From the NCBI GenBank assembly GCA_016936595.1, contig JAFGXO010000224.1, positions 1-39,827 of the forward strand: a stretch of 39,827 bases of DNA, in the 5' to 3' direction. Origin of the DNA: Bacteroidales bacterium (GTDB lineage: Bacteria > Bacteroidota > Bacteroidia > Bacteroidales > JAFGUD01). A model generated the notes under the pieces. It was given only the letters and a program-made list of their open reading frames with translations. It was not told the DNA's origin and searched no databases. A program made the position numbers and the translations under genes. Shown piece after piece: positions 13,549 to 30,709 of this stretch (position 1 is its first letter; every line of letters begins with the position of its first letter).

Positions 13549-14541
13549 ATGAAAATTATTATTCCAATGGCTGGCCTCGGTAAACGTCTCAGACCATTTA
13601 CATTAACAACTGCAAAACCACTTATAAAAATTGCTGGTAAGTCTATTGTTCAACGTTTAGTCGAAAAAATAATTAATGTTTCCAATGATGATGTTACCGA
13701 TGTTGCTTTTATTTTAGGAGATTTTCCTGAAGATGTTAAAATTAATCTTATTTCTATTTCTAATGAATTAAATTTTAATGTTCATTTCTTTTTCCAAAAA
13801 CAGGCTTTAGGTACAGCACATGCTATTGCTCAAGCTTCTGAACTGCTTGAAGGAAAGGTTATTATTGCGTTTGCTGATACCTTATTCAATGCTTCTTTTA
13901 AAATAGATGAATCTAAAGATGTAATAATTTGGACTAAAAAAGTTGATAATCCACAAAATTATGGTGTTGTTATTAAAGAAAATAGTCGTATTGTTGCATT
14001 TAAAGAAAAACCTCAAACTTTTATTTCTGATGAAGCTATTATAGGAATTTATTATTTTAAAAATTCAAATTTACTAAAATATAAACTTGATTATATTTTA
14101 AATAATGGTATTTCTGTAAATGGTGAATATCAACTTACTGATGCTTTACAATTTTTATTAGATGATGGTTTAAATTTTATTTCTCAAATTGTTGACGATT
14201 GGATGGATTGTGGTAATAAAGATATTCTTATTAAAACAGCTTCTAAAGTTTTGCAAGCCTTAGAAACTGTAATAGAGTCTGTTTATAAAACAAATAATAT
14301 AATCATTGAGCCTGTTTTTATAGGTAAAAATGTTCAACTTAATAATTGTATTGTTGGTCCCAATGTTTCAATTGAAGATAATTCAATTGTTCAAAATTCA
14401 ATTATTGATAATTCTATGATTTTATCTTCTGCAAAAGTTAATAATGCACGCTTCACCAATACTATTATTGGTAATTTTTCAAATGTTAAATTTAATATTG
14501 CTGAATTAGCAGTAGGTGATTATGATGAAATTTTATATTAG
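13549..14541 (+). CDS. Sugar-phosphate nucleotidyltransferase
   Basis: 330 residues. The N-terminal Rossmann-like domain carries the nucleotide-binding signature at residues 8-18 (AGLGKRLRPFT) and the Lys of AKPLIKIAGK. FADT near residue 115 binds metal and nucleotide. GEYQLTDA near 200 and a conserved WMDCGN follow. From about 255 the sequence turns into short hexapeptide-like repeats (IEPVFIGKNVQLNNCIVGPN), a partial left-handed beta-helix. It resembles glucose-1-phosphate thymidylyl- or uridylyltransferases and the N-terminal half of GlmU; the exact sugar and nucleotide cannot be assigned. Its end overlaps the next gene by 17 nt. Confidence 0.88.
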   Translation: MKIIIPMAGLGKRLRPFTLTTAKPLIKIAGKSIVQRLVEKIINVSNDDVTDVAFILGDFPEDVKINLISISNELNFNVHFFFQKQALGTAHAIAQASELLEGKVIIAFADTLFNASFKIDESKDVIIWTKKVDNPQNYGVVIKENSRIVAFKEKPQTFISDEAIIGIYYFKNSNLLKYKLDYILNNGISVNGEYQLTDALQFLLDDGLNFISQIVDDWMDCGNKDILIKTASKVLQALETVIESVYKTNNIIIEPVFIGKNVQLNNCIVGPNVSIEDNSIVQNSIIDNSMILSSAKVNNARFTNTIIGNFSNVKFNIAELAVGDYDEILY

Positions 14542-16150
14542 CATATTAGTAATACTATTCTCTTTTTCTGTTTTTTCGCAAAATAAAACTGATGAAAAGT
14601 TTAAAGAATTAGTATCAAATGCCTACAAATTACAGTTGGTTGCCGATAACGATTCTGCTAAAGTTCTTTTTTTAGAAGCTTTAAGTATTAAAGATTCCCC
14701 TGCTGTTAATTATGCTCTTGGTAAAATTTATTTTGCAGAAAATGATTTTTACTTAGCTTTAAAATATGCCGAACAAGCTTATTCTTTAAATAATAACAAT
14801 AAATGGTTTCAATTATTTTTGTTTAATATTTATGTAAAGATTAATGACAATATTAATGCTAAAGTGTTTATAGATAAAATTATTTCTCTTTCGAGTGCTA
14901 CTTCTTCTGATTATCTTTTAGCTATTGATTTTTATTCTAATTTAAATGATTATAATTCTGTTATTAATTTGCTTAATAATTACACTAAACTTTTTGGTAA
15001 TAATTATGAAGTTATTAATTACTATTATAATGCTCTTTATCGTTTATCTGATACTTTAAGTTTTTTAAATGTTTCTTCAGATTTTGTAAATTCCTTTGCT
15101 AAAGATGATTATGTTGTTAATTTAACTTTTGAATTTTATTTAATGTTTAAATTGTACGATCAAGCTTTACTTCTACTTTCTTCAAATTCTATTAAAAATG
15201 ATTATTTCTCTTTTCTTGTTTACTCCGAAAAAAATGATGTTACTAATTCTTATAATTCTCTTAAAAATTATTTAAATTCACTTTCTTCGTCTAATACTGA
15301 TCTTTCTTTTTTATTGGATAATTATACTTCTTTTATTGTAAAAAGTTATTTTGATGATCAATTAAATGATCTAATTACAATTTTGCTTACTTTTTCTGAT
15401 TTTGATTATAGTATTTCTTACTTTATTGCCTCAGCATACAAAAAATTAAACTTTTTTTATGATGCAATTGAGTTTTATGAATATTCCGTTACTATTGACC
15501 CAACTGATTTTTCTACTTTTTTAACTCTTTCAAATCTTTATTCTAAGTTGTCTATGTGGTCAAAATTAGATAGTATTTCATCTATTGCTATGGATTATTT
15601 TCCTGCAAGACCATATATTTATTTATTTAAAGGAATTTCACTTCTTTATCAAAATTTAACTGATGATGCTTATTTTTATTTGAATAGTGCATATTCTTTC
15701 GCTTTTTACGATTCAACTGTTCTTAGTTATACCTTTTTTTACTTATCTGAGTTCTATCGACTAACTGATGATAAAGTTTCTGAAAAATCATTTTTTCTTA
15801 AATCTCAAGATTTTGCTAATAATAATTATGACATTTTATTACATTTTGCCTATGTTTATTTAAATAATAATATTAATCTCGATTTATCAAAATTAATCAT
15901 TTTTAATTGTCCAAATAACTCATCAACTTATTTTAATTATTTGCTTGCATTTTATTATTATAGAATACATGACTTTGATAACGCTTTAATTACAATGAAT
16001 AATTTACTCTCAAATTATAACTCCGATAATTTTATATATTATGAATTAATTGGTAATATATATAATAAATTGGGTAATTCTAACAAAGCAACTTTTTACT
16101 GGCAGCTTTCTTTTGAATATGGGAATAAATTTATCAATAAAAACCTTTAA
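14525..16150 (+). CDS. Exported TPR-repeat protein
   Basis: 541 residues from ATG 14525 (the frame extends to GTG 14516; ATG 14522 is also possible). The chosen start gives a clean signal peptide (MKFYISILVILFSFSVFSQ). Tetratricopeptide-like helical pairs run throughout, clearest at residues 20-110 (AVNYALGKIYFAENDFYLA) and near the end (YYELIGNIYNKLGNSNKAT). The protein is extremely rich in Asn, Ser, Phe, Tyr and Asp, reflecting T-rich codons. It is probably a periplasmic scaffold for envelope assembly; in Bacteroidota a TPR gene typically sits between the nucleotidyltransferase and a DUF4292-like lipoprotein. It is followed by one base and then the lipoprotein ATG. Confidence 0.82.
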   Translation: MKFYISILVILFSFSVFSQNKTDEKFKELVSNAYKLQLVADNDSAKVLFLEALSIKDSPAVNYALGKIYFAENDFYLALKYAEQAYSLNNNNKWFQLFLFNIYVKINDNINAKVFIDKIISLSSATSSDYLLAIDFYSNLNDYNSVINLLNNYTKLFGNNYEVINYYYNALYRLSDTLSFLNVSSDFVNSFAKDDYVVNLTFEFYLMFKLYDQALLLLSSNSIKNDYFSFLVYSEKNDVTNSYNSLKNYLNSLSSSNTDLSFLLDNYTSFIVKSYFDDQLNDLITILLTFSDFDYSISYFIASAYKKLNFFYDAIEFYEYSVTIDPTDFSTFLTLSNLYSKLSMWSKLDSISSIAMDYFPARPYIYLFKGISLLYQNLTDDAYFYLNSAYSFAFYDSTVLSYTFFYLSEFYRLTDDKVSEKSFFLKSQDFANNNYDILLHFAYVYLNNNINLDLSKLIIFNCPNNSSTYFNYLLAFYYYRIHDFDNALITMNNLLSNYNSDNFIYYELIGNIYNKLGNSNKATFYWQLSFEYGNKFINKNL

Positions 16151-16151
16151 T

Positions 16152-16922
16152 ATGCGATTTTTTATAATTATTTTACTGTTTTTTACTATTACTTCTTGTG
16201 GTATTTTTAAAAAAACTACTTCTTATAGTCAGCTTAACGTTGATTCATTAGTTTTAAAACAGACTTCATACAATACAATTTCTTATAAATTTTTGTTAAA
16301 ATATTCTTCTTCTAATCAGAATATTAATTTATTTGGTAATTTTCTTAATTTTTATGATTCTGTTTTAATTTTTGATGTTAGTCCCGGTTTTGGTATAAAA
16401 GTGGCTAACGTTTTTATTTCTCCTGATACTACTATTGTTTATTTACCATTACAGCAGGAGGCCTACGTTGGTGGTGCTGACCTATTTTTAAATAAGTATA
16501 ATATTGCCCTTAATTTTTATTCTTTGCAGTCTTTATTTACAGCTAATTTGTTCAGTTATCCGTATTTTATTGATATAAATAATTATTCTATTGATAAAGA
16601 CTCGTCTCTTTTACTTTCTAACAAAATATATAATAAAAGAAATAACTCAATTACTGATATATTGCATTTTTTTAGATACGATCGTAATAATAATTTGAGT
16701 AGAGTTTTTATAGCTGATTATGTTCTAAATAAGCAAATTAATCTATTTTATTCTGATTTTACTATCATCGATTCTGTTTACAATTTTCCTACTCGTGCAA
16801 ATGTTAAATTATATGACCATGACACAACTTCTTTTGATTTTATTTTTAAAAATATAAAATTTAATAATAATCAAACTTTTGAATTTATTTTACCGGCTAA
16901 TGTTAAAATTACTAATTTATAG
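16152..16922 (+). CDS. DUF4292-like lipoprotein
   Basis: 256 residues from ATG 16152. The frame is open from 16050, but those extra 34 residues lie inside the TPR gene, and the ATG gives a lipoprotein signal (MRFFIIILLFFTITSCG, lipidated Cys16). The mature part is beta-rich (SYKFLLKYSSSNQNINLFGNF; FEFILPANVKITNL), like the Bacteroidota DUF4292 family, which has an LolA/LolB-like look. It lies directly upstream of the EnvC-like gene, as expected for that family. It is possibly an outer- or inner-membrane lipoprotein supporting envelope biogenesis. Function unproven. Confidence 0.75.
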   Translation: MRFFIIILLFFTITSCGIFKKTTSYSQLNVDSLVLKQTSYNTISYKFLLKYSSSNQNINLFGNFLNFYDSVLIFDVSPGFGIKVANVFISPDTTIVYLPLQQEAYVGGADLFLNKYNIALNFYSLQSLFTANLFSYPYFIDINNYSIDKDSSLLLSNKIYNKRNNSITDILHFFRYDRNNNLSRVFIADYVLNKQINLFYSDFTIIDSVYNFPTRANVKLYDHDTTSFDFIFKNIKFNNNQTFEFILPANVKITNL

Positions 16923-17964
16923 TCTTATTCTTTTATTATCGTACAATTCGTTTTCACAAAATACGATAGTTTTACCTGATAGTAATCTTACTGTTTATGA
17001 TGTTTATTATCTTCAAAATTTAGTTGATAATCAAACTGATATAGTTACGAATTTAAATGTTGAGTTAAATAGCTTACAATATAAATATATGAAACTTAAC
17101 AATGATTTATCAAAGGTTCAGTATTCGTTAAATTTATATAAAAATATTTTTTCCTCGTTACTTATTTCTATTTATAAAATTAAATCTACTTCTTTTTCAA
17201 CTTTTATTTTTCTATTTTCTTCAAATTCTTTCAATCAAATATATAAACGGTTCAATTATTTTAAATTATTAACAAAATATTTAACTAATTTAACACAATA
17301 TATTAACTTGCTCAATAAACAACTAAATTTATCACTTTTATCACTTGAAGCATCTAAAGAGTTATTAAATACTTGTTTGGTGAATTATCAAAATAGTAAA
17401 AATGTTTTAGATAGCAATACTAATATCTTATTACAACAATCTTACTTAATGCAACAAAATGCAGCTACTTTACGTATAAAGATAAACAGAGATTATAGTC
17501 AATATGATTCTTTAATTTTTCGTATTATGAACGCTAATTTAGCTAATTCTAACGATACATTATCAGATTTTGTTCTAACTTTAAGTCCTTTGAATAACTG
17601 CGTTGTAATCAGCTCATTTGGAGTTCATAATCATCCATATTTTAAGGGTGTGTCTGTTAAAAACGATGGAATAGATTTATTTTCTTCAACTGATACTATT
17701 GTTAAAGCTGTTTTAGATGGTACTGTTGTAGCAGTTATTAAAATTCCTAATTACGGCTATTCTATTGTTATTCAACATAATAATTATTATACTGTTTACT
17801 CTAATTTAAACTTTGTTTATGTTTCAAATAATTCTTTGGTTTATAAATCTCAAATTTTAGGTTCTTTATCCAAAAAAACTAGTAAATATTCATTTCCTTG
17901 TCTTAATTTTCAAATTTGGAAAGGTCAACAAAAGTTAAATCCAAAAATATTCTATGACTTCTAA
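16900..17964 (+). CDS. EnvC/NlpD-like degenerate LytM (M23) protein, predicted amidase activator
   Basis: 354 residues from ATG 16900 (the TTG at 16879 is less likely). A signal peptide (MLKLLIYSLILLLSYNSFSQ) is followed by a long coiled coil (about residues 35-220) and a C-terminal LytM domain (about 230-354, SFGVHNHPYFKGV to LNFQIW). The zinc ligands of active M23 peptidases are missing: HxxxD is Asn255-xxx-Asp259, and HxH is Cys334-x-Asn336. The family precedent is EnvC, where an inactive LytM domain with a coiled coil activates N-acetylmuramoyl-L-alanine amidases during cell separation. It overlaps the lipoprotein gene by 23 nt and the DUF4175-like gene by 11 nt. Confidence 0.85.
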   Translation: MLKLLIYSLILLLSYNSFSQNTIVLPDSNLTVYDVYYLQNLVDNQTDIVTNLNVELNSLQYKYMKLNNDLSKVQYSLNLYKNIFSSLLISIYKIKSTSFSTFIFLFSSNSFNQIYKRFNYFKLLTKYLTNLTQYINLLNKQLNLSLLSLEASKELLNTCLVNYQNSKNVLDSNTNILLQQSYLMQQNAATLRIKINRDYSQYDSLIFRIMNANLANSNDTLSDFVLTLSPLNNCVVISSFGVHNHPYFKGVSVKNDGIDLFSSTDTIVKAVLDGTVVAVIKIPNYGYSIVIQHNNYYTVYSNLNFVYVSNNSLVYKSQILGSLSKKTSKYSFPCLNFQIWKGQQKLNPKIFYDF

Positions 17965-20900
17965 TTCTGATATATCTTTAATTTTTAAAGGAATAAATAA
18001 ATACATTCGAAAATTTTATTTATACAAACTTTTTTCCGGAATTGTTATTTCAACTGCTCTTGTTAGCTTAATATATCTTTTTGTAGTTGTTATTCAGTTT
18101 TATTTTTATCTTCCTGTTTATTTAAAATCAATTATATTTTGGTCTTTTTTAACTATTTCATTCTTTATTTTATTTGAATTTGTAATTCTTAATTTGTTAA
18201 AATTTTTCCGAATTACAAAATTACTTACTAATGTTCAAGCTGCAAAACTTATTTCTGATAGTTTTCCCGAAATTAAGGATCAACTTTTAAACATATTAGA
18301 ACTTTATCACAAAGATGCTGATAACCTGCTTATAAATGCAGCTATTTTAAATAAAATAAATAAGATTACAATTTTTAATTTTTCTGCTGCAATATCATTC
18401 AAATCTCTTTTTTCCTATATAAAATATCTTGCTTTTCCTGCTTTAATTTTATTATTTGTATTTATTTATAATAAATCAATTTTAACTGTTGGTAATAAAA
18501 AATTTATTGATTATAATGTTTATTATCAGCCTGTTGCTCCTTTTGATTTTGTTTTACTTAATGATGATTTAATTGTTCAAACTGGTTCAGACTTAGTTTT
18601 AACTTTAAAAATTGATGGTGATGTTATCCCTGATCAAGTGTTTATTATTTATGGAAATAATAAAATTTCATTAGTTAAAAGTAACAAATTTAAAAATCAA
18701 TTTTCTTATACTTTAAAATCTATCAATAAAGACTTCTTTTTTAAATTTGAAGCTATGGGTTTTTCTTCGCAAAATTTTGTTGTTAAAGTGCTTCCAAACC
18801 CCTCTATTTTAGATTATTATGTTAATGCTGTACCATTGGCATACACAAATAAAGAACCGGTTAATTTAGAAAATAACGGTGATATTTTAGTTCCTATTGG
18901 TACTAAAATTACCTATACTTTTAATACTAAAAATGTAGATTCTTTAACTCTTGTAGTTGATAGTACTTATTTTATTGCCTCTAATATTTCTTCTCTTTTT
19001 AAAGCTAATTTTGTTGCTAAATACACATCAACTTATAAGGTAGTTGTTAAAAATTCGTATTTTTCTAATGAAATTTTCAATTATAATCTTACTGTTATTC
19101 CTGATTTGTTTCCCAAAATTACTGTTAATACTTTACAAGATAGTTTAATAAGTTCAAAATATTACTTTAAGGGCTACATTTCAGACGATTATGGGTTTTC
19201 TAATTTAACTTTTAATTATGCAGTTGTAAAAGATGATGTTGAACCTAACAATAATAATTATAATTCTATCAAAGTTGATTTTTTGAAAAATTTGCAAGAT
19301 CAAGAGTTTTATTTTTTGTATGATTTTAAAGATTTAATATCAGACCCACAATTAAAGTTATATTACTATTTCGCTGTTTCTGATAACGATGGTTATACTG
19401 GAAGTAAAACTACTAAAACTCAGTTGTTTATGTATAATCTACCAACACGTTTTCAAATTGATTCTGCTGTCAATGATTTAGATAATCAAGTACAAAATAA
19501 ATTAGATTTTGCTAAACAATTAGCTCTTGATATTCAACAAGATATCGACAATTTTAATGAACGTTTAATTAATGAAAATGTATCTGAGTGGGAACAACAG
19601 AATTTTTTAAATAATTTACTTCAAAAACAACAATCATTAAATTCTATGATTGATGATTTGAAAAAAAATAATAATGATAAGCTTAATCAATTGCAACAAC
19701 TTTCTGATCAGAATCAAGATTTGTTGGATAAACAAAAACAAATTCAAGATATGCTTGAGAGTTTATTAACTGATGATATGAAGGCAATGTTAGACTCTCT
19801 TCAAAAAATGCAAGATAATTTCAAATCAGATGATTTTGAACAATTAATGCAAAATATGCAACAAGATAATCAACAATTGAGTGATAACTTAGATAGATCA
19901 TTAGAATTGATGAAAAAAATGCAAGTTGAACAACAGCTGCAAAATACTGTAGATCAGTTAAATAAGTTGTCTGACGACCTACAACAACTTGCTGAGAATA
20001 TCGACAAAGCTAACGACATTACTTCTGCCCAAGAAGATTCAATTCTAACGAACGAATCAGACTTTCAAGAATTGATGAATGACTATGATAGTTTGTTAAA
20101 CAAAAATTCACAACTTGATAATCCTCTCGATTTAGACTCTTTATCTGATCAAATGGATAATATCCAAAAAGACTTTGAGCAAACAAAAGAGCAAATGTTT
20201 AACGATCAACAAAACAAAACCAGCAAAAGTCTTAAAAAAACAAGTCAGGATATGCAAGAGTTATCAGACCAAATGTCTGATATGATGAATTCAAACATGC
20301 AACAATCTAACGGCGAGGATATGCAAATGATTAAGTTTTTACTCACTAATTTACTTAGTTTTTCTTTTGAACAAGAAATTTTACATAATAGCACATCTAA
20401 AAATGTTTCTGTGTTTTCCGCTTTTTATAATGATCTTAAATATAAGCAACTTACTATAAAAGATGATTTTAAAATTATTTCTGACTCTTTATCTGCTTTA
20501 GCCCGCAGAAATCCTATGATAGGAAGTGTAATTTTAAATGAAGTTAATAATATTAATTCTAAATTAAATACTGTAAATACTCAATTAGGAACCGGCGATA
20601 GAGCCAATGCTTCAATAAATCAAAGATATATTATTACGTCTGCAAACAAATTAGCTCTAATGCTGCAAGAAAGTTTACAACAAATGCAAAATCAAATGAG
20701 TATGCCGGGTTCGGGTAATCCAAAACCTGGTAATAAACCGATGCCTTCTCCGGGTGATCTTCAACAAATGCAAAATGCAATGAAACAACAAATGCGACAA
20801 ATGATGCAACAAATGCAAAATGGTCAAATGCCCGGAAGTCAACAATTTGGAATACAATTAGCTCAACGTGAAGCATTTCAAAAAATGTTGCAGGATATGC

Positions 20901-25375: not shown

Positions 25376-26353
25376 ATGAATGTAAATATAAATAAAATCA
25401 AAGAGCCTGTTGAAGAAGAATTATTAGAATTTAAAAATTTTTTCAATAATATTTTGAAAACAGATAATAAATTACTTAATATTGTATTGCAGTATATTAT
25501 TAGAAATAAAGGTAAAGAATTAAGACCAATATTAGTTTTTCTTTCTGCAAAATTAGTTAATCATGTAACTGAAGCAACTTTTGTTGCTGCTTCAATGGTT
25601 GAATTAATGCATACTGCTACTTTAATTCATGACGATGTTGTTGATAATTCGCAACTCAGAAGAAGTAATTTTTCAATAAAAGCTTTATGGAAATCTAAAT
25701 TAGCTGTTTTAGTTGGAGACTATATGCTTGCACAAGGATTAAAATTATCGGTAAAAACTAAATCATTTAATATTTTAGAAATTGTTTCTACTGCAGTTCA
25801 AGAAATGGCAGAGGGTGAACTGATGCAAATAGAAAAAGCTCGTAAATTAAATATTACCGAAGATATTTATTTTGAAATTATTAGAAAAAAAACAGCTTCT
25901 CTTTTAATTGCATCTGCTAAAGCAGGTGCTGCATCTGTAAATGCTTCTGAGGATCAATTAAATTCAATAGAAAATTTTGCCTTAAATTTAGGTGTTGCAT
26001 TTCAGATTAAAGATGATTTATTTGATTATAGTAGTACCACTAACATTGGCAAACCGGAAGCTAATGATTTGCAAGAAAGCAAGTTAACTCTTCCTCTATT
26101 ATATTCTCTTAATAGAGCAAATAAAACAGACAGAAAAAAAATATTTAAAATTTTAGGAAAAAAAGTTAAAACTTTTAATGAAATTAAAATTGTCCAAAAT
26201 TTTGTCAAACAATCAGGTGGAATTGATTATGCTAAATCCGTTTTAGAAGATTATTCGAAACAAGCTATTGATGAACTACAGACATTTGACGATTCAATGG
26301 CAAAAAAATCGCTGATTGAATTGGTTGGTTATGTTGTTCTCCGAAAAAAATAA
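25376..26353 (+). CDS. Trans polyprenyl diphosphate synthase (octaprenyl/solanesyl type)
   Basis: 325 residues. Class I isoprenyl chain elongation enzyme that makes the side chain of respiratory quinones (menaquinone in this phylum). The first Asp-rich motif is LIHDDVVDNSQLRR (near residue 84) and the second IKDDLFDYSS (near 212). GKELRP near 43 binds isopentenyl diphosphate, and GEL-MQIEKAR and KKTASL are conserved. The residues before the first motif are small/medium (MHTATLIHDD), in keeping with long-chain products. Similarity to IspB-type enzymes is good, but product length cannot be read. It is probably monocistronic, 96 bp before the hemerythrin sensor. Confidence 0.92.
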   Translation: MNVNINKIKEPVEEELLEFKNFFNNILKTDNKLLNIVLQYIIRNKGKELRPILVFLSAKLVNHVTEATFVAASMVELMHTATLIHDDVVDNSQLRRSNFSIKALWKSKLAVLVGDYMLAQGLKLSVKTKSFNILEIVSTAVQEMAEGELMQIEKARKLNITEDIYFEIIRKKTASLLIASAKAGAASVNASEDQLNSIENFALNLGVAFQIKDDLFDYSSTTNIGKPEANDLQESKLTLPLLYSLNRANKTDRKKIFKILGKKVKTFNEIKIVQNFVKQSGGIDYAKSVLEDYSKQAIDELQTFDDSMAKKSLIELVGYVVLRKK

Positions 26354-26449: not shown

Positions 26450-29212
26450 ATGGCTAAATTATTAGATAATTTGAGTATCAGAAACAAGGTTGTTTATGGG
26501 CTCTTAATAACGTTATTCATATCTATGGGGATAGGTATTGTTGAATTTAATAATATTGTTAAAATTCAACAAAATTTTGAAGGTCGAAAAGTTTTTGGGG
26601 ACTATAAAACTAACTTTTTGGAGTTGCAGAATCTATTTTACAAAATGGAGGTGAGCGTTGTTAAATTAGCTAATGCAAGGAGTAAAGAGGTTTTAATTAA
26701 AGAACAAAATACCTATAAAAGCATTGACCTGGATATAGAAAATATTTTAAATGGTTTTGATTCTCAGGAGTTTGATATTATTAAAAATCCCGAACAATTA
26801 TTTCTTTTAGAAACCTTTAATGATAGTATTTTCAAGTACTCAAATATTTACAGGGAAAAAATTATATTGTCTGTAAAAAAATTAGATGAATATGTTAATT
26901 TAACTTTTCACCCGGATCAAGTATCGGATAATTACCAACGATTAATCGCAGAACAACAAAGCTTAGGTAATACGTATAATATTGATTATCAATTTATGAC
27001 TCAAGATGAAATAGTCTGGGAGTTACTGTCAACTTATGAGCGTGCTATTTTAGACCTCGAAAAATTTATTACATCAAGCCTTTCAAGTCAAGAGTTTTCT
27101 TTAGATAAAATAACGATTACAATTCAGGAAGAAATAGATAAGGATAATATTAGGTTATTAGAACTTAGAAGATCTAATATAAGGGTTACAATTATTGTTT
27201 TTGTTATTGGTATTTTGTTTGTTTTGTTAGTGAGTTATCTAATATCTCAGAGTATTGTAAAACCCTTGTTTACAACTAATAATATTATTGCAAAGTTAGA
27301 AAGAGGAGACATACCTGATAAAATAAACGCACAAAGAACCGATGAAATAGGTGTTATTTTAGAGTCTTTAGATGGATTAATCGAGTATTTAAATAATACA
27401 ACAAAATTCTCAAAGGAAATAGCCGTAGGTAATTTTTCTTATCATTATAATACCGCAGGGGAAACAGATGTTTTAGGACGTTCTTTGATTGAACTTAAAG
27501 ATAGTTTGGTTGTTGCTAAGAGAGAAGAAAAAAGAAGAGAAATAGAAGACGCTCGAAGACGTAGAACTGCTGATGGTATAGCAAAGTTTTCAGATATTTT
27601 GAGGCAAAATCAGAATAATTTAAAGAAATTAGGACAAGAGGTTATTTCTAATTTAGTTAAGTTTATTAAAGCTAATCAAGGAGTATTGTTTACTTTAGTT
27701 GAAGAAGACGAAGAAGTATATTTGAGCTTATTATCTGCTTATGCTTGGAACAGAGAGAAATTTTTAGAAAAACAGATTAAAATTGGCGAAGGCTTAATTG
27801 GTTCTGTTGCCCAAGAAAAATTTACTGTTTATATGACTGATGTTCCTGAAGATTATATTGAAATAAAATCCGGAACAGGTAGTGCGAATCCTAAAAGCAT
27901 TCTAATAATTCCATTAAAGGTTGAAGATGAGGTGCTTGGAGTTTTAGAAATTGCTTCTTTTCAGGATTTTGAACAATATGAAATACAACTTGTTGAAATT
28001 ATTGCTGAAAATATTGCTTCTACTCTTAAATCTGTTCGTATTACTGCTCAAACAAGTGAATTGCTTGAAAAATTCCAAATTCAAGCCGCAGAAATGAAAG
28101 AGCAAGAACATGCAATGAAAGAAACAATTGATGATTTAAGACGATCCGAAGAAAAAAAGAAGTTAAAAGAAGAAGAGTTAGTTAGAAATCTTAAAGAAAT
28201 GAGTGAATTGAATAAACAAATTCAATTTAAAGATGAACAACTTAAAAATGAAATTGATAGACTTTCGGAAGAAAATACAAAAAAAATAAAACAGCTTGAT
28301 TTACAACAAAAACAAAGTCGTGAAATTTTGGAATCGATGCTTACTGGTGTTATTATAATTAAACAAGGAGGCAGTATTGAGTTTGTAAATAAAGCAACAG
28401 AAGAAATTTTTGGATATAATGATATGGAGCTTTTGGGCATTGAAATTGATAAACTAATTGAAATGCCGCCTGATGTTGGAGACAAAAAATTATGTGAATT
28501 TTTATTTGAAAACTTACTCAAAATCAAAGAAGCTCATGGACGTGAATTTTATATTAAGCTTAAGAATGGTCAACTTAAAAAAATCTTGTTGGAATTGATG
28601 GTATTAGAATCGGAAAAACAAGAAGATATGAGAATGGTTATTTTCATAAAAGATATGGAACGTTTCGAAAAACAAGATATTCAAAATAAAACCTTTGTAA
28701 ATAAGCTAATTGCTAATGATTTTGAAAATGTAATGAAATTTGAATTTTACGAAGAAATATTTAAACAAAACAATATTTCTGTTCCAACTTTTGAACTTAA
28801 TAAAGAAGAAATTATTAAATGGGGACCACATTTTGAATTAGGTGTTGCTATGATTGATAACCAACATAAACGATGGATTCATTTTATAAACGATTTATAT
28901 AAAGGGCTTAATGATGATAAAAAATCAGATGATTTAGCTATGGTATTTAAAAAATTAATGGATTATACTGATTACCACTTTGGTTTTGAAGAAAAATACA
29001 TGAACGAGTTTGGTTATGAACAAACTCAAGGCCACGAAATTAGTCACGAAAAATTTATTAGCGGACTAAATGAAATGTTTTTAGATTATATTGAGGGTAG
29101 GACAGACACGGCTTATAATTTAATTTTATTCCTTAAAAAATGGGTAACCGAACACGTTACCGTAACTGATAGAAAATACGTTGATTTATTTAAAAGACAT
29201 GGTATTAGATAA
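26450..29212 (+). CDS. Membrane sensor HAMP-GAF-PAS with C-terminal hemerythrin domain
   Basis: 920 residues. The first membrane span is about 14-34, a helical periplasmic sensor region about 35-240, the second span about 245-267 (TIIVFVIGILFVLLVSYLI) and a HAMP region about 268-325. A GAF domain follows (about 385-527, with GEGLIGSVAQEK and ILIIPLKVEDEVLGVLEIA), then a long coiled coil (about 528-625), a PAS domain (about 626-743, with MLTGVIIIKQGGSIEFVNKATEEIFGY) and a bacteriohemerythrin domain (about 785-917). All seven di-iron ligands are visible: His806, His843, Glu847, His862, His866, His902 and Asp907. Hemerythrins bind O2 or NO. No kinase, cyclase, GGDEF or chemoreceptor signalling domain is present. 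It is followed by a strong terminator. Confidence 0.9.
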   Translation: MAKLLDNLSIRNKVVYGLLITLFISMGIGIVEFNNIVKIQQNFEGRKVFGDYKTNFLELQNLFYKMEVSVVKLANARSKEVLIKEQNTYKSIDLDIENILNGFDSQEFDIIKNPEQLFLLETFNDSIFKYSNIYREKIILSVKKLDEYVNLTFHPDQVSDNYQRLIAEQQSLGNTYNIDYQFMTQDEIVWELLSTYERAILDLEKFITSSLSSQEFSLDKITITIQEEIDKDNIRLLELRRSNIRVTIIVFVIGILFVLLVSYLISQSIVKPLFTTNNIIAKLERGDIPDKINAQRTDEIGVILESLDGLIEYLNNTTKFSKEIAVGNFSYHYNTAGETDVLGRSLIELKDSLVVAKREEKRREIEDARRRRTADGIAKFSDILRQNQNNLKKLGQEVISNLVKFIKANQGVLFTLVEEDEEVYLSLLSAYAWNREKFLEKQIKIGEGLIGSVAQEKFTVYMTDVPEDYIEIKSGTGSANPKSILIIPLKVEDEVLGVLEIASFQDFEQYEIQLVEIIAENIASTLKSVRITAQTSELLEKFQIQAAEMKEQEHAMKETIDDLRRSEEKKKLKEEELVRNLKEMSELNKQIQFKDEQLKNEIDRLSEENTKKIKQLDLQQKQSREILESMLTGVIIIKQGGSIEFVNKATEEIFGYNDMELLGIEIDKLIEMPPDVGDKKLCEFLFENLLKIKEAHGREFYIKLKNGQLKKILLELMVLESEKQEDMRMVIFIKDMERFEKQDIQNKTFVNKLIANDFENVMKFEFYEEIFKQNNISVPTFELNKEEIIKWGPHFELGVAMIDNQHKRWIHFINDLYKGLNDDKKSDDLAMVFKKLMDYTDYHFGFEEKYMNEFGYEQTQGHEISHEKFISGLNEMFLDYIEGRTDTAYNLILFLKKWVTEHVTVTDRKYVDLFKRHGIR

Positions 29213-29245: not shown

Positions 29246-30709
29246 ATGAAAATTTTATTAATAAATCCACCGCAAGAAAATTCAATGCAAGCAGGCATCG
29301 AAGACGATTTTATTGACATTATAGGGTATTATCCTCCTTTAGGATTGATGTATATTGCTACAATTCTAAATAATCAAGGTTTTGAAACAAAAATTATTGA
29401 TTGTGTTCCTATGAAAGTTGGGTATAATGAACTGAAAAATAAAATATCTGATTTTAAGCCTGATGTTGTTGGAATTTCAACTTACACAATGTCTATGGTT
29501 GATGTTTTATTAACAGTTAATCTTGTTAAAGAATTACATAAAGATGTAATTGTTGTTCTTGGAGGACATCATGTTCAATTATATCCTTTATTATCAATTA
29601 ATTATGATAATGTTGATTTTATTTTACGTGGCGAAGCTGATTACACTTTTTTAGAGTTAATAAATGCAATAAAAAATCAAATACCAATTGATAAGTTTGA
29701 AAAAATTGAAGGTATAGGGTTTAAAAATAGAGATAAAGAGTTCATACACCCAAGAATCGCAATGGTTAAAGATTTGAATAATTTACCGATTCCTGATAGG
29801 ACTCTTCTCCCAAAAGATATTTATCAAAGCATTGTTGGGCGAAATAACATGGTTGCAACTGTAATGTCTTCACGTGGTTGTCCGTATAAATGTACTTTTT
29901 GTTATACTCCAAGTAAATTGTATCGCTCCAGAACAACTGAAAATATTTTAGACGAAGTGAAATATCTTAAAAGTCAAAGTTATAAAGAAATTTTCTTTTT
30001 TGATGATTTATTTGCCTTAAAACCAAGTAAAGTAATTGATTTTTCAAAGGCTTTAAGGCTCGAAAATATTAAAATTGATTGGAGTTTTAGAGGTAGAATT
30101 AATACAGTTACCGAAGAAATGATAAATGAAGCAGCTAAAAGCGGAATTCATAGGATTCAATTTGGGATTGAGGCTGGTGTTGATAGCACTTTGAAACGTA
30201 TAAAAAAGGGTATTTCCACCGACAAAATAACTCAGGCGATAAAATGGTGTAAAAAAGCAAAAATAACTACTGTGGGTAACTTTATGATAGGTTTACCTGA
30301 CGAGACTGAAAAGGAAATAAATCAAACTTTAAGGTTTTCGAGAAAAGTTGGTTTAAATTATGCTCAATATAGTATTTTGGTGCCGTATCCTTTTACAGAA
30401 ATTTATACCGAGGCATTAAAACGAGGCATTATAAAAAAAGATTTTTGGTTAGAATTTTCTAAAGATCCAATAAAAAACAAAGATAATTTTAAAGTTGAAT
30501 ATTGGACTGAACATGTTAGCGAAGAATTTTTATTTAAAACAATTAAAAAATCTTTTAAACTCTTTTATTTCAGACCTATATCAATAATTAATAAATTAAA
30601 AGAAATAAAAACCTTTCAAGAATTTTGGTTCTCAGTGAAAGGAGCTTTTAGTGTTTTGGTTTTTAGCCCACGTATAAAATCTATTAAGAATGATAACAGT
30701 TTAACATAA
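29246..30709 (+). CDS. B12-binding-domain radical SAM protein
   Basis: 487 residues. The N-terminal B12-binding-like domain (about 1-140) starts MKILLINPP, passes YYPPLGLMYIATIL, GISTYT and LGGHHVQLYP, and ends LRGEADYTFLEL. The radical SAM core has the cluster motif Cys-xxx-Cys-xx-Cys in SSRGCPYKCTFCYTP (about 211-225), then FFFDDLF, IQFGIEAGVDSTLKRIKKG and FMIGLPDET. The DxHxxG motif for axial His binding to cobalamin is absent, as is common in this BchE-like class of methylases and cyclases. The C-terminus (FWFSVKGAFSVLVF) is hydrophobic. The substrate is unknown. The ATG lies directly behind the sensor gene's terminator, leaving no room for a separate promoter. Confidence 0.92.
   Translation: MKILLINPPQENSMQAGIEDDFIDIIGYYPPLGLMYIATILNNQGFETKIIDCVPMKVGYNELKNKISDFKPDVVGISTYTMSMVDVLLTVNLVKELHKDVIVVLGGHHVQLYPLLSINYDNVDFILRGEADYTFLELINAIKNQIPIDKFEKIEGIGFKNRDKEFIHPRIAMVKDLNNLPIPDRTLLPKDIYQSIVGRNNMVATVMSSRGCPYKCTFCYTPSKLYRSRTTENILDEVKYLKSQSYKEIFFFDDLFALKPSKVIDFSKALRLENIKIDWSFRGRINTVTEEMINEAAKSGIHRIQFGIEAGVDSTLKRIKKGISTDKITQAIKWCKKAKITTVGNFMIGLPDETEKEINQTLRFSRKVGLNYAQYSILVPYPFTEIYTEALKRGIIKKDFWLEFSKDPIKNKDNFKVEYWTEHVSEEFLFKTIKKSFKLFYFRPISIINKLKEIKTFQEFWFSVKGAFSVLVFSPRIKSIKNDNSLT

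Follow-up and report, generated by a model that had tools for sequence, protein, structure and literature searches.

A membrane receptor of Bacteroidales that ends in bacteriohemerythrin and lacks an output domain: a candidate for signalling in trans

The locus considered here raises a simple question: if a two-span membrane receptor carries a complete hemerythrin domain at its C-terminus and no recognisable output domain at all, by what route might it signal? The gene lies in a 39,827-nucleotide stretch of DNA from a Bacteroidales bacterium (contig JAFGXO010000224.1 of assembly GCA_016936595.1), referred to below as the window, where it occupies positions 26450-29212 of the forward strand. 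It begins with ATG, encodes 920 amino acids and is real and complete; a chance reading frame can be discounted because full-length homologues, with 57% and 55% identity, are present in two genomes of the same genus.

The receptor and its domains

The features of the gene and of its immediate neighbours are as follows, with the basis of each assignment in brackets.

25376..26353, + strand: polyprenyl synthetase, upstream neighbour (Pfam)
26450..29212, + strand: membrane receptor without output domain, 920 aa (Pfam, NCBIfam, AlphaFold2)
26483..27244, + strand: first membrane span, extracytoplasmic helical region and second span, residues 12-265 (spans by eye; long helices in the model)
27239..27394, + strand: HAMP, residues 264-315 (Pfam, below cut-off)
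27395..27523, + strand: putative second HAMP-like unit, helix, connector, helix, residues 316-358 (inferred from model and alignment)
27617..28027, + strand: GAF, residues 390-526 (Pfam)
28031..28315, + strand: long signalling helix without output domain, residues 528-622 (Pfam, AlphaFold2)
28310..28657, + strand: PAS, residues 621-736 (Pfam, NCBIfam, structure match)
28658..28813, + strand: helix and flexible linker, residues 737-788 (AlphaFold2)
28814..29191, + strand: bacteriohemerythrin, residues 789-914 (NCBIfam; sequence and fold match to DcrH-Hr)
29246..30709, + strand: B12-binding radical SAM protein, downstream neighbour, 33 bp on (Pfam, NCBIfam)

The order of parts is thus two membrane spans (by eye, at about residues 12-36 and 246-265), HAMP, a HAMP-like unit, GAF, coil, PAS and hemerythrin. 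The HAMP match, at 20.5 bits, falls under the Pfam cut-off of 25 bits; among the 11 hemerythrin-ended members of the family described below, 10 have a HAMP match. The second HAMP-like unit gave no match in the domain libraries, and has D340-V-L-G in place of the D-E-I-G of the first. The remaining Pfam matches are GAF_2 (9e-14), PAS at residues 624-736 (2e-6 to 5e-6) and hemerythrin at residues 798-912 (6e-11). In the AlphaFold2 model (mean pLDDT 73) the N-terminal part consists of long helices followed by the HAMP helices; one unbroken helix (509-629) covers the coil at 528-625, with no domain there, and is followed by PAS (630-735), a further helix (736-773), a stretch of low confidence and four helices (800-916). 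A heme-binding PAS was considered and set aside: PAS structures of FixL and DosP rank high in Foldseek, but they share the common PAS fold, and a heme ligand was sought by eye only.

The C-terminal domain scores 107.4 bits with the NCBIfam bacteriohemerythrin model NF033749 (residues 789-914; cut-off 84) and 99.6 bits with TIGR02481 (cut-off 51.75), its best solved relative is DcrH-Hr (2.6e-14), and the modelled four-helix part superposes on DcrH-Hr (3waq) with a TM-score of 0.94, normalised by target, and an rmsd of 1.2. The complete di-iron ligand set claimed in an earlier note on this DNA was borne out by alignment, all seven residues of the pattern H-HxxxE-HxxxH-HxxxxD being present (H806, H843, E847, H862, H866, H902 and D907). 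The label H-box motif is presumptive. Judged from its sequence, the domain is probably a sensor of O2, NO or redox state in the window's lineage.

No output domain could be found to accompany it. A Pfam search of the whole protein at E<=1 gave no credible domain beyond HAMP, GAF, PAS and hemerythrin, and in particular no MCP signalling domain (PF00015), no HisKA or HATPase, no GGDEF, EAL or HD-GYP catalytic domain and no SpoIIE/PP2C; the NF038263 model of SiaA, a phosphatase of HAMP-PP2C type, reached 16.6 of 700 bits, and NCBIfam kinase models matched in the PAS or HAMP region only, far under their cut-offs. None of the 11 hemerythrin-ended homologues has an output domain that could be found, and the AlphaFold2 model, as predicted, has no room for a hidden one. 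On this point, therefore, the earlier note stands, with Pfam, NCBIfam, AlphaFold2 and the homologues in agreement.

The same note had also regarded a sensor placed C-terminally, in the position of an effector, as unusual, and here the literature is against it. In an extract of the survey PMC4919030, hemerythrin in long proteins is C-terminal in 117 cases and N-terminal in 52, the commonest architecture being MCP with C-terminal hemerythrin; DcrH likewise has its hemerythrin C-terminal, behind the MCP domain (extract of PMC9388753). What is unusual is the missing output domain and not the domain order. The surveyed extract (PMC4919030) also terms O2-binding hemerythrins negligible in Bacteroidetes; the present genome has six Pfam hemerythrin matches, the focal protein among them.

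A family sharing a core

The absence of an output domain is, so far as sequence comparison can tell, a trait of a whole family and not of the hemerythrin fusion. The focal protein belongs, on the same kind of evidence, to a large Bacteroidales family of receptors sharing a HAMP-GAF-coil core (residues ~311-592 of the focal protein), of which it represents the hemerythrin branch. Its own genome encodes 13 further proteins with the core region; in Pfam, 12 of these have only Cache, HAMP, GAF or PAS, and one has SpoIIE. Among 60 genomes of relatives from the same order, for each of which at most about 15 candidates were scored, strong core matches occur in 25 (best E<=1e-59, a cut placed after seeing the gap, as the next value was 3e-37); locus L032, which falls below this cut, encodes a hybrid kinase. 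A search across the phylum, covering 395 genomes with two candidates scored in each, found seven genomes at E<=1e-60, none of them with a hemerythrin-ended match except the window's own.

For closer comparison 90 distinct members were aligned to the core, picked by similarity to the focal core, a choice that under-samples enzyme-fused distant relatives; three of the 90 are shorter than 260 aa and may be fragments. Fifteen end no more than 40 aa after the core (three of these being cut by the end of the stretch). The C-terminal parts of the other 75 contain PAS in 72 cases, hemerythrin in 11 and SpoIIE in three, while kinase, receiver, GGDEF, EAL and MCP domains are absent among the 25 families listed for them (24 further families matched). 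Members in two loci (L144 and L145) that at first appeared truncated proved on longer stretches to be SpoIIE proteins. By sequence, the core recurs in many paralogues whose N-terminal sensors differ and whose C-terminal module may be a PAS, several PAS or a hemerythrin; scarcely any of them has an enzyme. Since the C-termini vary in this way between PAS, hemerythrin, SpoIIE and nothing at all, hemerythrin can be regarded as one interchangeable C-terminal module. The core is also the most constrained part of the hemerythrin-ended homologues: mean pairwise identity among 25 proteins with intact ligands is 68% for GAF, as against 45% for hemerythrin, 25% for PAS and 20% for the N-terminus.

A family that splits sensing from output so fully poses the question of which partner reads the shared core. 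Output in trans through that core is the route we favour, with some reserve, and signalling by direct protein contact, one of the options of the earlier note, is supported as the most likely mechanism. The hemerythrin would act as a cytoplasmic input for O2, NO or redox state; its state would travel via PAS and along the long helix into the GAF/HAMP core, which would combine it with an extracytoplasmic input; and the core, being common to all members, would dock on an output-bearing partner. For this role a core-bearing SpoIIE-type phosphatase belonging to a SpoIIE/SiaB/SiaC partner switch is the best candidate.

Intact and ligand-losing hemerythrins

Contigs of named GTDB genomes were scanned with an 11-row alignment, giving 80 loci of 322 matching (with the focal protein alone as query the scan found none). 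Core and hemerythrin occur together in 43 of the 80, and the hemerythrin is C-terminal in all 43. The resulting set of 44, window included, comprises 25 intact proteins (HHEHHHD), 16 from a gut clade in which three His are replaced together (T/L/V at 806, F/Y at 862, Y at 902) and three divergent ones that have lost one or two ligands. The ligands of the focal protein are as follows (all by alignment).

28865..28867, + strand: H806; L, T or V in the gut clade
28976..28978, + strand: H843; unchanged in the gut clade and the intact proteins (41 of 41)
28988..28990, + strand: E847; unchanged in the gut clade and the intact proteins (41 of 41)
29033..29035, + strand: H862; Y or F in the gut clade
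29045..29047, + strand: H866; unchanged in the gut clade and the intact proteins (41 of 41)
29153..29155, + strand: H902; Y in the gut clade
29168..29170, + strand: D907; unchanged in the gut clade and the intact proteins (41 of 41)

The earlier note had held that loss of iron ligands in close homologues would tell against its reading, and the outcome is divided: the two closest homologues (55-57% identity) and 22 more keep all seven, while the gut and divergent proteins do not. Loss of a single ligand was known already, since in an earlier survey (as cited in an extract of PMC10101095) one ligand His is replaced in about 18% of bacterial hemerythrins. What is new here, as far as sequence and predicted structure go, is a clade that keeps the receptor and the predicted fold without the full di-iron ligand set.

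The 16 gut proteins form one clade with full support, whose sister group in a midpoint-rooted tree consists of eight intact proteins including that of the window (94/93). Their core identity of 47-51% is orthologue-like, and intact and gut kinds are probably orthologous, as the same neighbouring genes, dksA and lspA by eye, occur at seven gut loci and four intact loci (these labels, like metF and ileS, are presumptive). Of the 16 record titles, 13 name ruminant or horse, two carry “RUG”, which we take to mean rumen, and one is without source. The two kinds amount to a natural experiment, in which one receptor, in a similar locus, occurs either with the di-iron ligand set or without it.

The cydA gene is found in 13 of the 25 intact genomes and COX1-family genes (E<=1e-50, matches that can include NO reductases) in 16 of the 25, as against none of the 16 gut genomes for either; one or the other is present in 20 of the intact genomes, leaving five without both. 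It must be remembered that this association represents a single evolutionary event, because the gut genomes form one clade. The pattern fits an O2 or NO role for the intact domain and loss of that role in an anoxic gut lineage.

The altered domain appears nonetheless to be maintained. From the 13 usable pairs of the gut clade dN/dS is about 0.047 for hemerythrin, compared with 0.047 for the linker, 0.040 for PAS and 0.012 for GAF (in the intact group the values, 0.18-0.81 by domain, come from proteins too divergent for the method and were set aside). The gut domain is predicted to have the hemerythrin fold (against DcrH-Hr 3waq, Z 19.3 with 133 residues superposed at rmsd 1.5), from an alignment that also contained intact proteins. 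The four remaining ligands, H843, E847, H866 and D907, are among only 13 domain positions that do not vary across the 41 proteins, intact and gut together; within the gut clade 49 of 126 domain positions are invariant, so that four of four ligands by chance would be mildly unlikely. Their invariance in sequence hints that metal may still be bound. A tentative reading is that the gut hemerythrin, still under strong purifying selection, has become a different device, which may keep a 2-His/Glu/Asp(/Tyr) site or form a bundle without iron, in a receptor family that feeds a SpoIIE/Sia partner-switch network in trans. If this were true, the hemerythrin fold could signal or make contacts by itself, having been released from O2 when the lineage lost O2 respiration.

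A rival view would make the hemerythrin itself the contact, and hence output, domain, the bundle binding a partner while iron and O2 only modulate it; in the gut clade it would work without a di-iron site. The maintained gut domain, under constraint like that of PAS and linker and with its fold predicted to be unchanged, speaks for this, as does its unvarying C-terminal place, but conservation is higher in the core than in hemerythrin, most family members have the core without any hemerythrin, and the invariant ligands hint at a bound metal; we consider this view unlikely.

Candidate partners and known systems

Output in trans through the core requires a partner, and the genomes suggest one. 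A multi-PAS output-less member with a WL-containing tail adjoins a core-PAS-SpoIIE gene in five of five genomes examined (G000, G002, G018, G057 and G059), and in four of these SiaB (PF19788) and SiaC (PF09345) come after the core-PAS-SpoIIE gene. SiaC is present in 25/25 core-family genomes but 5/35 others (Fisher p=5e-12, ignoring relatedness), although lineage or a signalling-rich lifestyle may be the cause of this co-occurrence. Around 60 core loci, three of which (L256, L259 and L285) come from the five-genome SpoIIE-adjacent clusters, SiaC is found 10 times (3.2 expected) and SpoIIE lies no more than 600 bp from the core in six cases (about 1.0 expected; Poisson, ignoring relatedness); counting all SpoIIE gives 13 against 8.4, which is not significant, and 48 of the 60 have no SpoIIE nearby. 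At the 43 hemerythrin loci SiaB, SiaC and SpoIIE are not conserved neighbours (0, 2 and 5 cases), about the chance level as we estimate it from gene densities, in a count whose ORF filter dropped cores in some loci (the 60-locus count was unfiltered). Nor is the radical SAM gene, to which the earlier note had drawn attention, a consistent companion, being adjacent at three of the 43 besides the window; the gene order with polyprenyl synthetase is preserved in the two same-genus genomes.

Setting SpoIIE/Sia adjacency and co-occurrence against che-operon copies of the core (below) and the want of a partner neighbour at the hemerythrin loci, action in trans is likely and SpoIIE/SiaB/SiaC the leading candidate for the partner. 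That the trans output is this network is possible, though doubtful, and for the hemerythrin receptor itself the partner is one that we infer. Taken as a whole, the proposal that the focal protein is a membrane receptor of an output-less Bacteroidales family, working in trans with a core-bearing SpoIIE-type phosphatase as its best candidate partner, can be advanced as a working view, short of an even chance. These genomes hold many SpoIIE and SiaC genes for which no receptor set was found described in the open-access literature, where no paper on the output-less core family or the ligand-losing gut clade was found either; the family is a candidate for that set.

Chemotaxis would be another route, the output-less receptors serving as accessory receptors on CheA/CheW arrays, in effect a DcrH-like aerotaxis receptor that borrows the MCP domain from others. 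In six genomes an output-less core protein of ~760 aa (625 aa as called in L089) does lie inside a che operon, after CheA, CheW, CheR, a HATPase protein, CheD and CheB; it is last of the series in five of the six, a second CheR- and CheB-like set coming after it in L089. Such a location points to a different output for this branch. All six copies end in V(E/D)LF, a tail missing from the copies of G000 and the CheW-less G020, both outside che operons. CheW and MCP genes occur in the window's own genome, and CheW in 18/25 core-family genomes against 2/35 others. As a general output, however, chemotaxis is weakened by the seven core-family genomes without CheW, among them G002 of the same genus, a 96% complete genome that encodes the hemerythrin receptor; moreover CheA is found at 0/60 core loci and 0/43 hemerythrin loci, and the focal protein ends ...KRHGIR, without the V(E/D)LF tail. 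We regard it as improbable for the focal protein.

Mixed oligomers with histidine kinases bearing a related HAMP-GAF core are more improbable still: a more divergent core (28% identity) is indeed fused to HisKA-HATPase-REC in L032, but such kinase genes come from genomes with weak core matches, and no adjacency was seen. Single-domain hemerythrins are known for roles in O2 storage, scavenging or delivery, and the complete ligand set would suit a membrane-bound counterpart, as the earlier note had suggested; this is now very improbable, given that the genome already has other hemerythrin-family genes, that a HAMP-GAF-PAS chain is pointless for storage and that a sub-clade drops ligands yet keeps the receptor. 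Least credible of all is the idea that residues 528-625 or 743-785 conceal a catalytic domain, such as a divergent kinase: although pLDDT is low at 538-570 and 763-784, both stretches are modelled as single helices with no Pfam match at E<=1 and none above an NCBIfam cut-off, the homologous parts of the 11 hemerythrin-ended and 75 family members have no match among the families listed save SpoIIE in three, and 15 members end right after the core.

Returning to the focal receptor, its closest known likeness is DcrH of Desulfovibrio vulgaris (2avk, 3waq), the best match of its hemerythrin in both sequence and fold, which is also a two-span receptor with HAMP, a C-terminal cytoplasmic hemerythrin and the same seven ligands; DcrH has an MCP signalling domain, whereas the focal protein has GAF and PAS instead and no output domain. 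According to an extract of PMC9388753, it is an open question even in DcrH how a C-terminal hemerythrin relays O2 to the other parts of the receptor. The same extract describes hemerythrin as the O2 or redox domain of larger proteins in Bhr-DGC (Vibrio cholerae), Bhr-HD-GYP (Ferrovum) and a P1B-5 ATPase (Acidothermus), each of them, unlike the focal protein, fused to a catalytic domain.

Within the Bacteroidales, PG_0686 of Porphyromonas gingivalis combines hemerythrin and PAS with a non-canonical ligand set, but is soluble, has its hemerythrin N-terminal to PAS and contains DUF1858; it is reported as a diguanylate cyclase without the GGDEF motif (extract of PMC10101095). Finally, the candidate partner operon, with its core-PAS-SpoIIE phosphatase, SiaB-like gene (PF19788) and SiaC (PF09345), resembles SiaA/SiaB/SiaC of Pseudomonas aeruginosa as given in an extract of PMC7647112. 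There SiaA holds the phosphatase in the receptor itself, while here receptor and phosphatase are separate genes that share the GAF core (PMC7647112, for SiaA).

Che-operon tails

In chemotaxis (che) operons the output-less GAF-PAS protein, a HAMP-GAF-coil family member carrying no enzyme domain, ends at its C-terminus in V(E/D)LF in all six copies listed here, and this tail is absent from the output-less GAF-PAS copies found outside such operons (loci L063 and L101).

Output-less GAF-PAS proteins of che operons
L084:11964-14246
L085:11124-13406
L086:4203-6488
L087:3267-5558
L088:3150-5414
L089:5284-7161

Similar tails (-EIF, -EVF, -EFF or -ELF) terminate other proteins of the same operons, and these shared endings may serve as a docking tag.

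Genomic surroundings of the receptors

The window's own genome contains two paralogous clusters, each with an output-less receptor (L048, L049), an OmpA-PD40-TPR-type protein and FGE-sulfatase-type proteins; gene order is the same in both.

Paralogous output-less-receptor clusters
L066:3776-12986
L067:3690-13524

In the same genome, within G000:C137:3330-7214 (L005), cydA lies about 2 kb from a single-domain hemerythrin gene. At 14 of the 16 gut loci encoding hemerythrin-ended receptors (L173, L177, L178, L180-L185, L191, L193-L195 and L228) the receptor is preceded on the same strand by a gene read by eye, and here taken to be, metF, some 70-122 bp upstream (distances for 12 of the 14); at the other two the receptor begins at the contig end. 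Within the window, G+C drops to 23-24% over about 6 kb (14001-20000), as against 26-34% elsewhere.

Partner-switch genes are very numerous among the relatives (G000-G059): one genome alone can have as many as 21 matches to SiaC, and matches to SpoIIE can exceed 40 per genome. The window's own genome has 14 and 45 respectively.

The HATPase protein of che operons

Bacteroidales che operons also encode a HATPase protein of about 300 residues, in which the stretch FISN..NE..NP, presumably the H-box region, occurs in all eight copies.

HATPase proteins of che operons
L084:9284-10195
L085:8159-9067
L086:8195-9091
L087:7307-8191
L088:8115-9023
L089:9026-9925
L090:3801-4694
L092:4417-5310

On these residues the protein looks like a pseudo-kinase: the position of the phosphorylated His of histidine kinases is occupied by Asn in every copy (8/8).
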